Positions 49,739 through 59,432 of a DNA stretch of 64,000 bases are shown one piece after another; within the stretch, counting starts at the first letter, position 1; the number at the start of each line of letters is the position of its first letter. The notes beneath the pieces were generated by a model. That model searched no databases. It had not been told where the DNA came from and saw only the letters and a list, made by a program, of their open reading frames with translations. This DNA is from an uncultured Nitrospirales bacterium. Lineage in GTDB: Bacteria > Nitrospirota > Nitrospiria > Nitrospirales > UBA8639. A program made the translations under genes and the position numbers. Location: NCBI GenBank assembly GCA_958295805.1, contig OY282373.1:2575001-2639000 (forward strand), in the 5' to 3' direction.

Positions 49739-50327
49739 GAGCTGCCTGGACCGCCCGCCGCCTGGAACAGGCGCCATGAGATGGCGCCCTACAATGCTAT
49801 AATTCTACAACTGTAGGGCAGCAGCTCATGCTGCCTGGACCGCCCGCCGCCTGAGAAGAGGCGCCATGAGATGACGCCCTACAATGCTGCGATCCTCCAA
49901 CTGTAGGGCAGCAGCTCATGCTGCCTGGACCGCCCGCCACCTGAGAAGAGGCGCCATGAGATGACGCCCTACAATGCTGCGATCCTCCAACTGTAGGGCA
50001 GCAGCTCATGCTGCCTGGAACGGCCGTCGCCTGGAAGAGACGCCATGAGATGGCGCCCTACGATGCTGCGATCCTCCAACTGTAGGGCAGCAGCTCATGC
50101 TGCCTGGACCGCCCGCCACCTGGAAGAGACGCCATGAGATGGCGCCCTACGATTCTATGATTCTCCAACTGTAGGGCAGCAGCTCATGCTGCCTGGAACG
50201 GCCGTCGCCTGGGAAGAGGCGCCATGAGATGACGCCCTACGATGCTGCGATCTTACTGTAGGGCAGCATCTCATGCTGCCTGGACCGCCCGCCACCTGGG
50301 AAGAGGCGCCATGAGATGGCGCCCTAC
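49739..50327. repeat. REP/BIME array A, about seven paired units
   Basis: About seven units of about 90 bases. Each holds two facing palindromes: one with stem CAGCA/TGCTG, and one with stem GGCGCCAT/ATGGCGCC around a GAG loop, each with GTAGGG (or CCCTAC) at its foot. Units start near 49771, 49861, 49951, 50040, 50130, 50219 and 50306. GTAG at the hairpin foot is the recognition mark of REP elements used by RAYT enzymes, and a RAYT gene lies at 58097. Confidence 0.9.
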
Positions 50328-52009: not shown

Positions 52010-52515
52010 GACGGTGGGGCAGCAGACGGCAAAAGGGAAGAGGCGTCATGAGATGACGCCCTACGATGCTGCGATCTTACAACTGTAGGGCAGCATCTCA
52101 TGCTGCCTGGACCGCCCGCCGCCTGGGAACAGGCGCCATGAGATGGCGCCCTACGATGCTGCGATCTTACAACTGTAGGGCAGCATCTCATGCGGCCTGG
52201 AATGGCTGCCGCTTGGGAAGAGGCGTCATGAGATGACGCCCTACGATGCTCTGATTCTACGACTGTAGGGCAGCGGCTTATGCTGTCTGGAATGGCCGCC
52301 GCCTGGAAGAGGCGCCATGAGATGGCGCCCTACGATGCTCTGATTCTACGACTGTAGGGCAGCGGCTTATGCTGCCTGGACCGGCTGCCGTTTGGAAGAA
52401 GAGGCGCCATGAGATGGCGCCCTACGATGCTGCGATCTTACAACTGTAGGGCAGCATCTCATGCTGCCTGGAACGGCCACCGCATGGGAAGAGGCGCTAT
52501 GAGATGGCGCCCTAC
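52010..52515. repeat. REP/BIME array B, about eleven palindromes
   Basis: Alternating palindromes of the same two kinds as array A, with stems GGCGTCAT/ATGACGCC, GGCGCCAT/ATGGCGCC and CAGCAT/ATGCTG, and again GTAGGG feet. Two units have GGCTTATGCT in place of ATCTCATGCT and look degraded. The end of this array and the end of array A share the flank ACATTTTGATGGGGT just before a terminator. Confidence 0.88.
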
Positions 52516-57286: not shown

Positions 57287-57325
57287 CTTACCTCCATCCC
57301 TCGTTATGCTATCCAGAGTTTCCAA

Positions 57326-58070
57326 GGCCGCATGAGATGCGGCCCTACATTTGTAGAATCGTAGGGCGCCATCTCATGGCGCCTGGGTTCCGGGTCTACC
57401 AACAATGATACCCGGTTCAGATGACACAAAGGGAGCGGATTTTAACAAAGGCATTTTGTGCCTCGCAAGGAACGTCTGTGCCTGGTATAGTTTTCAAGGC
57501 CGCATGAGATGCGGCCCTACATTTGCGGAATCATAGAATCGTAGGGTGCCATCTCAGGGCGCCTGGGTTCCAAGGCCGCATGAGATGCGGCCCTGCATTT
57601 GTAGAATCGTAGAACCGTAGGGTGCCATCTCATGGCACCTGGGTTCCAAGGCCGCATGAGAGGCGGCCCTACATTTGTAAAATCATAGAATCGTAGGGCG
57701 CCATCTCAGGGCACCTGGGTTCCGGGTCTACCGACAATGACACCCGGTTCAGATGACACAAAGGGAGTTTTCAAGGCCGCATGAGATGCGGCCCTACATT
57801 TGTAGAATCGTAGAATTGTAGGGTGCCATCTCAGGGCACCTGGGTTCCGAGGCAGTATGAGATACGGCACCTACATTTGTAGTTCCGAGGCCGCATGAGA
57901 TGCGGCCCTACATTTGCGGAATCATAGAATCGTAGGGTGCCATCTCATGGCACCTGGGTTCCAAGTTCCAAGGCCGCATGAGATGCGGCCCTACATTTGC
58001 AGAATCGTAGAATTGTAGGGTGCCATCTCAGGGCGCCTGGGTTCCGAGGCCGCATGAGAGGCGGCCCTAC
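57326..58070. repeat. REP/BIME array C next to the RAYT gene, about sixteen palindromes
   Basis: Roughly eight pairs of palindromes: GGCCGCAT/ATGCGGCC around GAG, and GGTGCCAT or GGCGCCAT/ATGGCACC around CTC, each with GTAGGG/CCCTAC feet. Between them are AGAATCGTAGAA-type spacers and GGTTCC links. Two 45-base segments (from 57389 and 57720) look like copies of the 5' end of the RAYT gene. It directly abuts the RAYT ORF. Confidence 0.9.
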
Positions 58071-58096
58071 ATTTGTAGGTTTCCGAGGCTACAACA

Positions 58097-58573
58097 ATGA
58101 CGACTGGCTCAGATGGTTTGGACAAACGCTTCCGATTTCGACATCGACAACGCCTTCGATTACGTCACTATGATTACCGGGAAAACGGGTACTATTTTGT
58201 GACCATTTGTACGAAGAATAGAACGCCATGGTTTGCAACCTCTAAAGCCAAAGGCCTTGTTCAACAAAAAATGGAACAAATTCCTCAATTTTTCTCCGGG
58301 GTCTCAATCGATCAGGCCGTGGTGATGCCGAATCACCTGCACGTCATTTTTGTTTTTCAATCGTCGAATACATCGCTTGGTCAGGTCATTCAGGTATTTA
58401 AGTCGTGGGTAACGCGGGCATGGGGAGTGGGTCATTCTATATGGCAGTCCAATTATTATGATCACGTCATTCGAAATGAAGTCGCCCTCAATAAGATTCG
58501 CCGGTACATTGTGAATAACCCCATTGTTGACCGGATAGATTGCGAGCAGTTTTATGACGTGTTACGAAATTAA
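58097..58573 (+). CDS. REP-associated tyrosine transposase (RAYT)
   Basis: 158-residue Y1/HUH-family protein: basic N-terminus RFRHRQRLRLRHYDYRENGYYFVTICT, the metal-binding HUH motif MPNHLHVIF, and the catalytic-Tyr region IWQSNYYDHVIRNEVALNKIRRYIVNNP. In E. coli such enzymes bind REP hairpins with the foot GTAG and nick next to it. The surrounding GTAGGG-foot palindromes are therefore its likely target. ATG 58097 is the start. It is intact and may still be active. Confidence 0.93.
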   Translation: MTTGSDGLDKRFRFRHRQRLRLRHYDYRENGYYFVTICTKNRTPWFATSKAKGLVQQKMEQIPQFFSGVSIDQAVVMPNHLHVIFVFQSSNTSLGQVIQVFKSWVTRAWGVGHSIWQSNYYDHVIRNEVALNKIRRYIVNNPIVDRIDCEQFYDVLRN

Positions 58574-58581
58574 CCCGTCGT

Positions 58582-58830
58582 GCCACATCTCATGAAATTA
58601 ACCCGTCGGGCCACATCTCATGAAATTAATCCGTAGGGCCGCATCTCATGCGGCCTGGAGAAGGCGCGATAAGGTATGTCTCTGCTTCTCTGGAGGGAGG
58701 CACCATGAGATGGTGCCGCTACGGCAGAGTTTGGTTAAAATATAAATCGACGTGGCTGCGGGAAGAATGATCAAATTGGTGGGAGGAAGGCGCCATGAGA
58801 TGGCGCCGCTACGGCAGAGTTTCGCTCATT
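58582..58830. repeat. REP elements downstream of the RAYT gene
   Basis: Three near-repeats CCACATCTCATGAAATTAA (58582-58650, stems mostly lost), one intact palindrome GGCCGCAT/ATGCGGCC type (58630-58655), then two copies of a longer unit, CACCATGAGATGGTG and CGCCATGAGATGGCG, each followed by CCGCTACGGCAGAGTTT. The two units start near 58697 and 58782, about 85 bases apart. Confidence 0.8.
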
Positions 58831-59432
58831 TGTACGGTGTTTTGTTCTTCCTGTGCCTTTCGAGTCAGGTGTTGGCCCAGGGGGGGCCGGCTCCTTTTGG
58901 GCCTAACGAGTCTCAGCACGGTTTTTCGCAGTTCGATACGATCCCTCCGAATCCGGAGGAAACGGTTCCCGATCCCCTGGACTACTATAAGACGCCGAAC
59001 TCTGATTCGGCTGGTTCTCTCGACGCCACTCCCGGCGGGCTTTTTTTGCACGTGACGTTGGCTGAAGACTTTGAAGAGGCGTTACAGTTTCGGCGCGGCA
59101 ACCTCTATCGCCCGATCCATCCAACGGACGAATTCTCTCCCGATACCTTGGCCGTACACGTCGTCTTTCGCGTGTTTAAGCACTATAGCTCGTATCACGT
59201 GATCGGACGTCTCTTTCCTGAACAAGTGCCCGGTTTATCCGGTGACCGCTTCTTCGATGAAGATACGGCCTCTCTCGCACCGGAAGATGAGAGCGGATAC
59301 CTCAAGTTTTTCGCGCCGTTTGAAGACGGCTGGATTCCGGGACGCTACCGCATCGACATTTTCGTAGGATTTGAAGCTAACGACGTCACCCGCATGGGCA
59401 CGTTGCACTTCACGGTGACTCCGAACGCCTGA
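58800..59432 (+). CDS. Secreted protein of unknown function with REP-derived start
   Basis: 210 residues: APLRQSFAHLYGVLFFLCLSSQVLAQGG is a signal peptide with cleavage near VLAQ. The mature part has DTIPPNPEETVPDPLDYYKTPNSD, a central FRVFKHYSSYHVIGRLFPEQVPG and a beta-like end RYRIDIFVGFEANDVTRMGTLHFTVTPN. Family unknown. The ATG at 58800 lies inside a REP palindrome (GCGCCATGAGATGGCGC). An in-frame ATG at 58767 is an alternative start and would give 16 extra residues. Confidence 0.7.
   Translation: MAPLRQSFAHLYGVLFFLCLSSQVLAQGGPAPFGPNESQHGFSQFDTIPPNPEETVPDPLDYYKTPNSDSAGSLDATPGGLFLHVTLAEDFEEALQFRRGNLYRPIHPTDEFSPDTLAVHVVFRVFKHYSSYHVIGRLFPEQVPGLSGDRFFDEDTASLAPEDESGYLKFFAPFEDGWIPGRYRIDIFVGFEANDVTRMGTLHFTVTPNA

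Follow-up and report, generated by a model that had tools for sequence, protein, structure and literature searches.

REP palindromes are said to act on translation near stop codons, in work by Liang, Rudd and Deutscher from 2015. The hairpin described here resembles those REPs in that a hairpin near translated sequence may impede ribosomes, and it differs from them in covering a potential start codon. The closest described cases are GTAG-tagged REPs that lie inside open reading frames (ORFs), including at their NH2 termini, and REPs whose ends supply TAG stop codons (PMC3733652). The authors of that study caution that many of the N-terminal cases may be leaders with a start further downstream, and the words "start codon" occur nowhere in its main text (0 occurrences). 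Our search of the literature, which was partial in its coverage, returned no REP-supplied start codon. A second related system is formed by the Rickettsia palindromic elements (RPE), which are about 150 bp long, carry a conserved peptide and are in frame in host proteins (PMC10969869).

The locus analyzed here lies in a window of 64,000 nucleotides, by which we mean the whole stretch of DNA analyzed, from the single-contig 2.9-Mb genome of an uncultured Nitrospira-type bacterium that we label G000 among 14 genomes of the genus. With the REPs of PMC3733652 it shares a GTAG-tagged palindrome, a link with a RAYT gene, an overlap with the N-terminal end of an ORF and residues that would be encoded by the REP. 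It differs from those cases in that the displaced promoter block is known, as are orthologues lacking a REP at the junction, and in that within the signal peptide no ATG is found downstream of the REP, only TTG. With the RPE it has in common that a palindromic mobile repeat would be translated in frame within a host protein; the unit, however, is 41 bp and not about 150 bp with a conserved peptide. In four relatives (G004, G005, G006, and G010) the gene is intact, lacks this palindrome at the junction and has no REP beside its start, which is the comparison with REP-less relatives that an earlier sequence-only reading of this DNA had proposed. REPs at the N termini of ORFs are already published, and the present case is a good single example.

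Results

The secreted-protein gene and its surroundings

The gene of interest encodes a protein with relatives in 55 of the 59 genomes searched, including all 14 of the genus. The best four matches from other species (G010, G007, G004, and G006) have about 72 to 73% identity to it. The mature region of 176 residues is intact. Neither a Pfam nor an NCBIfam family was matched by the protein, and its predicted structure (mean pLDDT of 77) consists of eight strands and a single helix, the latter at the signal peptide. A fold search with this model gave generic beta-sandwich matches only, with a carbohydrate-binding module as the highest target-normalized TM-score (0.62) among the matches listed, and we draw no function from it. 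A divergently oriented methyltransferase gene adjoins the orthologue in 12 of the 13 other genomes of the genus, the locus of the remaining one (G009) being cut by a contig end, and a glycosyltransferase gene is present on the other side. Between the glycosyltransferase gene and the secreted-protein gene there is an ORF for a retropepsin-like aspartyl protease (PF13975; 59484 to 60062, minus strand) that has no match in the remaining loci retrieved for the orthologues. In the tree, G000 is placed outside a clade of G007 and every other genome of the genus, with 91% support. Rfam gave no match in the region from 57300 to 59000. The features of the locus are collected in Table 1.

Table 1. Features at the junction of the REP and the secreted-protein gene, in window coordinates
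Feature	Position	Strand	Remarks
Conserved promoter-like block	57435..57491		Between divergent methyltransferase and secreted-protein genes; 13-genome alignment
REP array downstream of the promoter-like block	57498..58066		Both REP orientations; hairpin scan
RAYT (REP-associated tyrosine transposase) gene, 158 aa	58097..58573	+	PF01797, NF047646
Upstream copy of the 41-bp REP unit	58692..58732	+	38/41 identical to the copy at the gene
Secreted-protein gene	58767..59432	+	Signal peptide, then predicted Ig-like beta-sandwich domain
ATG, most likely start	58767..58769	+	In frame; model 2.7; open reading frame after the stop at 58743
REP unit fused to the gene, 41 bp	58782..58822	+	GGAGG flank, palindrome 58789-58807, CTAC, tail GGCAGAGTTT
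ATG inside REP, out of frame	58795..58797	+	Opens 86-codon ORF; model 7.8
ATG inside REP stem, start proposed earlier	58800..58802	+	In frame; model 11.5; unpaired probability 0.25, 0.05, 0.00

The REP family, its RAYT gene and the duplicated unit

The palindrome at the gene, GGCGCCAT-GAG-ATGGCGCC, has an 8-bp stem and a GAG loop, with a predicted folding energy of -13.1 kcal/mol, and the same hairpin is present in the centroid fold. The stem is directly followed by GCTAC, and CTAC reads GTAG on the minus strand, the end of a GTAG-type REP. The hairpin is a member of a real REP family and not a product of chance, because the pattern CATGAGATGNNGNN{0,3}CTAC matches 127 sites in the genome, compared to 0 for the reversed control pattern, and because the motif is found in 12 of the 14 genomes of the genus (0 to 32 copies per genome outside G000). 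Hairpins of this kind number 35 in the window, 22 on the plus strand and 13 on the minus strand. The REP is linked to the RAYT gene, the product of which matches the Y1 transposase domain PF01797 (E value of 2.5e-7; 31.3 bits, with a cutoff of 23) and the REP_Tyr_transpos equivalog of NCBIfam, NF047646 (87.3 bits, with a cutoff of 80). RAYT matches occur in 7 of the 14 genomes of the genus, and in the other genomes none is at the secreted-protein locus. Elsewhere in the window, two REP arrays (49775 to 50318 and 52047 to 52506) have a period of about 90 bases and both orientations, and are BIME-like.

It had been claimed that the ATG at 58800 lies inside CGCCATGAGATGGCG and that the first codons from it read MAPLRQSF; both are as described, and this ATG shares its frame with an ORF that ends at 59432. 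The tail after the palindrome had been called the usual tail of this REP, with another copy 85 bases upstream. A second copy does exist upstream, at a spacing of 90 bases, but the tail cannot be called usual, because GCTACGGCAGAGTTT occurs in exactly two places in the genome, both of them in 41-bp units, and the other REPs have varied sequence after CTAC. The tail CTACGGCAGAGTTT is part of the 41-bp unit that is present twice, and two of the three differences between the copies make up one compensated stem pair, A-T to G-C. Judged from the sequence, the pair of tails reflects a local duplication of the whole unit beside the RAYT gene. The borders of the unit are not sharp. Judged by eye, removal of just the 41 matching bases would shift the frame and removal of 42 would preserve it.

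Candidate start codons

The frame of the gene is open from ATG 58767 through the REP. We scored the in-frame candidates with our own simplified implementation of the thermodynamic scheme of Salis, in which a lower score is better. The best scores were those of ATG 58767 and TTG 58776 (2.8), followed by TTG 58842 (4.2), TTG 58830 (6.4), and GTG 58779 (9.9), with GTG 58752 (13.3), GTG 58869 (15.2), and TTG 58872 (16.5) behind ATG 58800. In this rough model ATG 58767 is ahead of ATG 58800 by about 9 kcal/mol, and ATG 58800 is among the worse candidates because the stem buries it. The native starts of the relatives score from -1.9 to 13.0, with two that received no score, so the model is an unreliable predictor of starts in these bacteria and only its ranking was used, weakly. 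The predicted burial of ATG 58800 in the stem is firmer than this ranking. The predicted folds leave ATG 58767 mostly paired as well (unpaired probability of 0.00 to 0.13). We accordingly rank initiation upstream of the REP first, the ATG of the REP second and initiation downstream third. From either ATG 58767 or ATG 58800, the REP unit would encode at least the residues MAPLRQS of the protein.

The statement that the hairpin covers the start codon holds to the extent that the stem does bury ATG 58800, but there it would be an obstacle, and it lowers the rank of this codon. The hairpin would sequester the start only if ATG 58800 is the start. A second ATG in the palindrome, at 58795, had been overlooked. 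The out-of-frame ORF that it opens (58795 to 59055) has a better-spaced GGAGG and could serve as a decoy.

Among the 13 other genomes, 10 have signal peptides that begin with a clear ATG (MHI, MRI, MQI, or MKL), and these native starts mostly have no good Shine-Dalgarno sequence. A near ATG is absent in G002, G007, and G009. In G007 (L003/L032) there is no in-frame ATG, GTG, or TTG near the signal peptide, and the closest ATG in this frame lies 249 nt ahead of the HGF anchor, within repeat sequence. The REP junctions of G000 and G007 (CTAC-R-GCAG...GCTCATTTG) look alike by eye; we do not rely on a shared ancestry of the two, as the tree separates them.

The promoter-like block and the leader across the genus

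The promoter-like block ends in an extended -10-like site, TGGTATAGT (57483 to 57491), that faces the secreted-protein gene, and GCCTGCTATAGT has a single match with one mismatch, at 57480. The minus strand of the block carries TTGCGA-18-TAAAAT. Across the genus the end of the block reads CTGCTATAGT, again extended -10-like and readable in 13 of the 14 genomes, and the form in G000 is CCTGGTATAGT, ending at 57491. Between the block and the gene, G000 carries 1.3 kb of REP array and RAYT, and the distance from the -10-like site to ATG 58767 is 1,275 nt. A promoter scan recognized no promoter just upstream of 58767. The distance to the nearest native-type ATG is 10 nt in G004, 36 nt in G005, 87 nt in G011, 88 nt in G001, and 98 nt in G008, and it is longer in G003 (196 nt), G012 (610 nt), G006 (623 nt), G010 (626 nt), and G013 (664 nt); in G007 and G002 no ATG is present where one would be expected.

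What fills the leaders was identified by eye from the aligned loci. REPs or REP halves are found in G001, G003, G007, G011, G012, and G013. Toxin-antitoxin genes are found in G006, G010, and G013, and an antitoxin gene alone in G012; in the three relatives with the pair it lies between the conserved block and the gene (L033, L031, and L012). The pair of G010, the only one on which Pfam was run, matches PF09720 and PF05016 (L033, 2439 to 2950). Another palindrome is present in the leaders of G005 and G012. This palindrome, TAGGGAACAACGATCGTTGTTCCCTA, directly follows the -10-like site (L034 and L036), and in G012 it is present twice, each time with a CTGCTATAGT. Altogether, 10 of 13 leaders, that of G000 included, contain an identifiable element (9 of the 12 other readable genomes). 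The leader of G004 has no element, and by eye those of G002 and G008 have nothing that could be named.

REPs at other genes of the genus

A sample of 80 loci with 117 REPs was taken from the matches listed, which are not all matches, in G000, G001, G011, G005, and G003. To call genes in it we used a simple score of codon usage, derived from 26 ORFs of the window, so that distances are approximate. Gene starts within 100 nt of a REP lie on the CTAC side in 14 cases and on the other side in 8, without a clear bias. For 25 REPs a gene start lies on the CTAC side at a distance of up to 150 nt; 8 of these REPs contain an open ATG in frame with it, compared to 6.0 expected, and a general capture of REP ATGs as starts is rejected for this sample. 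Two individual candidates also fell away. One is at a gene that we take, from the look of its sequence, to be gpsA (L041), to which homologues align only from query residues 6 to 11, residue 11 being the native ATG. The other is at a gene that is presumably a peptidase gene, named in the same way (L064), where the native ATG is likely to be downstream of the REP, judged from sequence alone.

Two of the 117 REPs are inside predicted genes. One of them, in G001, lies in the reading frame (RHEMAQLQ) of another exported-protein ORF (L118), just after its signal peptide. As a predicted ORF, this is a second example in the genus of an in-frame REP at the N-terminal side of an exported-protein gene. 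This protein (homologues L119 to L131) has 514 to 534 codons in 9 of the 14 genomes and a shorter frame of 195 to 251 codons in G000, G001, G009, G011, and G013. The part lost in several species is presumably a Kelch-like middle. Near the junction there is a REP in G001 and another repeat in G009.

Discussion

The explanation that we prefer, with a probability of about 0.5, is that the REP unit is now part of the 5' coding sequence of the secreted-protein gene and that initiation most likely occurs at ATG 58767. RAYT-driven spread together with local duplication would have placed the 41-bp unit at the gene, where the last of the two units overlaps the reading frame of the signal peptide. The ribosome would start at ATG 58767 and read through the REP, and the signal peptide would gain a REP-encoded n-region (MIKLVGGRRHEMAPLRQS, then FAHLYGVLFFLCLSSQVLAQ) that may be tolerated and removed by signal peptidase. 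The hairpin would then be a passenger that brakes modestly if at all. Of the earlier proposal that a REP was captured as a translation start, the fusion of a REP to the 5' end of a conserved gene, in the N-terminal frame, stands; the supply of the start codon is unsupported, as ATG 58767 scores better. Among the genomes searched, no close relative has the same fusion or an empty site.

It is possible, if doubtful, that the REP does supply the start codon at ATG 58800, where the hairpin might also slow initiation. The frame is open from this codon and the resulting signal peptide of 27 residues (MAPLRQSFAHLYGVLFFLCLSSQVLAQ) would be normal. In G001, G011, and G013, too, the native ATG is preceded by an in-frame ATG that derives from a REP, a plausible stepping stone. 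The poor rank of the buried codon speaks against such a start, as does the lack of an excess of in-frame REP ATGs before genes. The Shine-Dalgarno evidence points both ways: ATG 58800 is preceded by GGAGG at a distance of 13 nt and by a weaker GGAAGG at 9 nt, but the best-spaced GGAGG favors the out-of-frame ATG 58795. We consider it quite unlikely that the REP is an untranslated leader and that translation begins at TTG 58830 or TTG 58842. Both codons outscore ATG 58800, and published N-terminal REPs of predicted ORFs are often leaders with the true start downstream (PMC3733652), but these starts have no good Shine-Dalgarno sequence, the likely cleavage site would follow after 17 or 13 residues, the n-region would have no basic residue, and their products would be unlike the clear beginnings (MRI, MHI, MQI, or MKL) of the relatives. 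A silenced gene, with the 1.3 kb inserted between promoter and gene and a good start site lost, would fit the displaced promoter-like block and the result of the promoter scan near the gene. This is highly improbable, as the mature region is intact, the protein is 72 to 73% identical to its best four relatives, leaders of 610 to 664 nt precede intact genes in G006, G010, G012, and G013, and the RAYT gene, in the same orientation as the secreted-protein gene, could share the promoter with it.

A broader idea, which we regard as unlikely to hold as a whole, is that mobile elements (RAYT-REP, toxin-antitoxin pairs, and other palindromes) land recurrently in the leader between the promoter-like block and the signal-peptide gene and would gain transcription there. 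REP ATGs in the leader might then be spare starts that allow the loss of the ancestral start, as in G000, so that REPs would create N termini stepwise. The more general lead from this work is that a single stretch, between one promoter and its gene, has repeatedly received unrelated elements. Annotators should not take for granted that an ATG within a REP is the start. The locus offers a clean natural case, which can be compared with 13 related species, in which a noncoding mobile palindrome joins the 5' coding end of a gene, and it suggests a way for mobile DNA to be taken up into signal peptides, given their tolerance of change.
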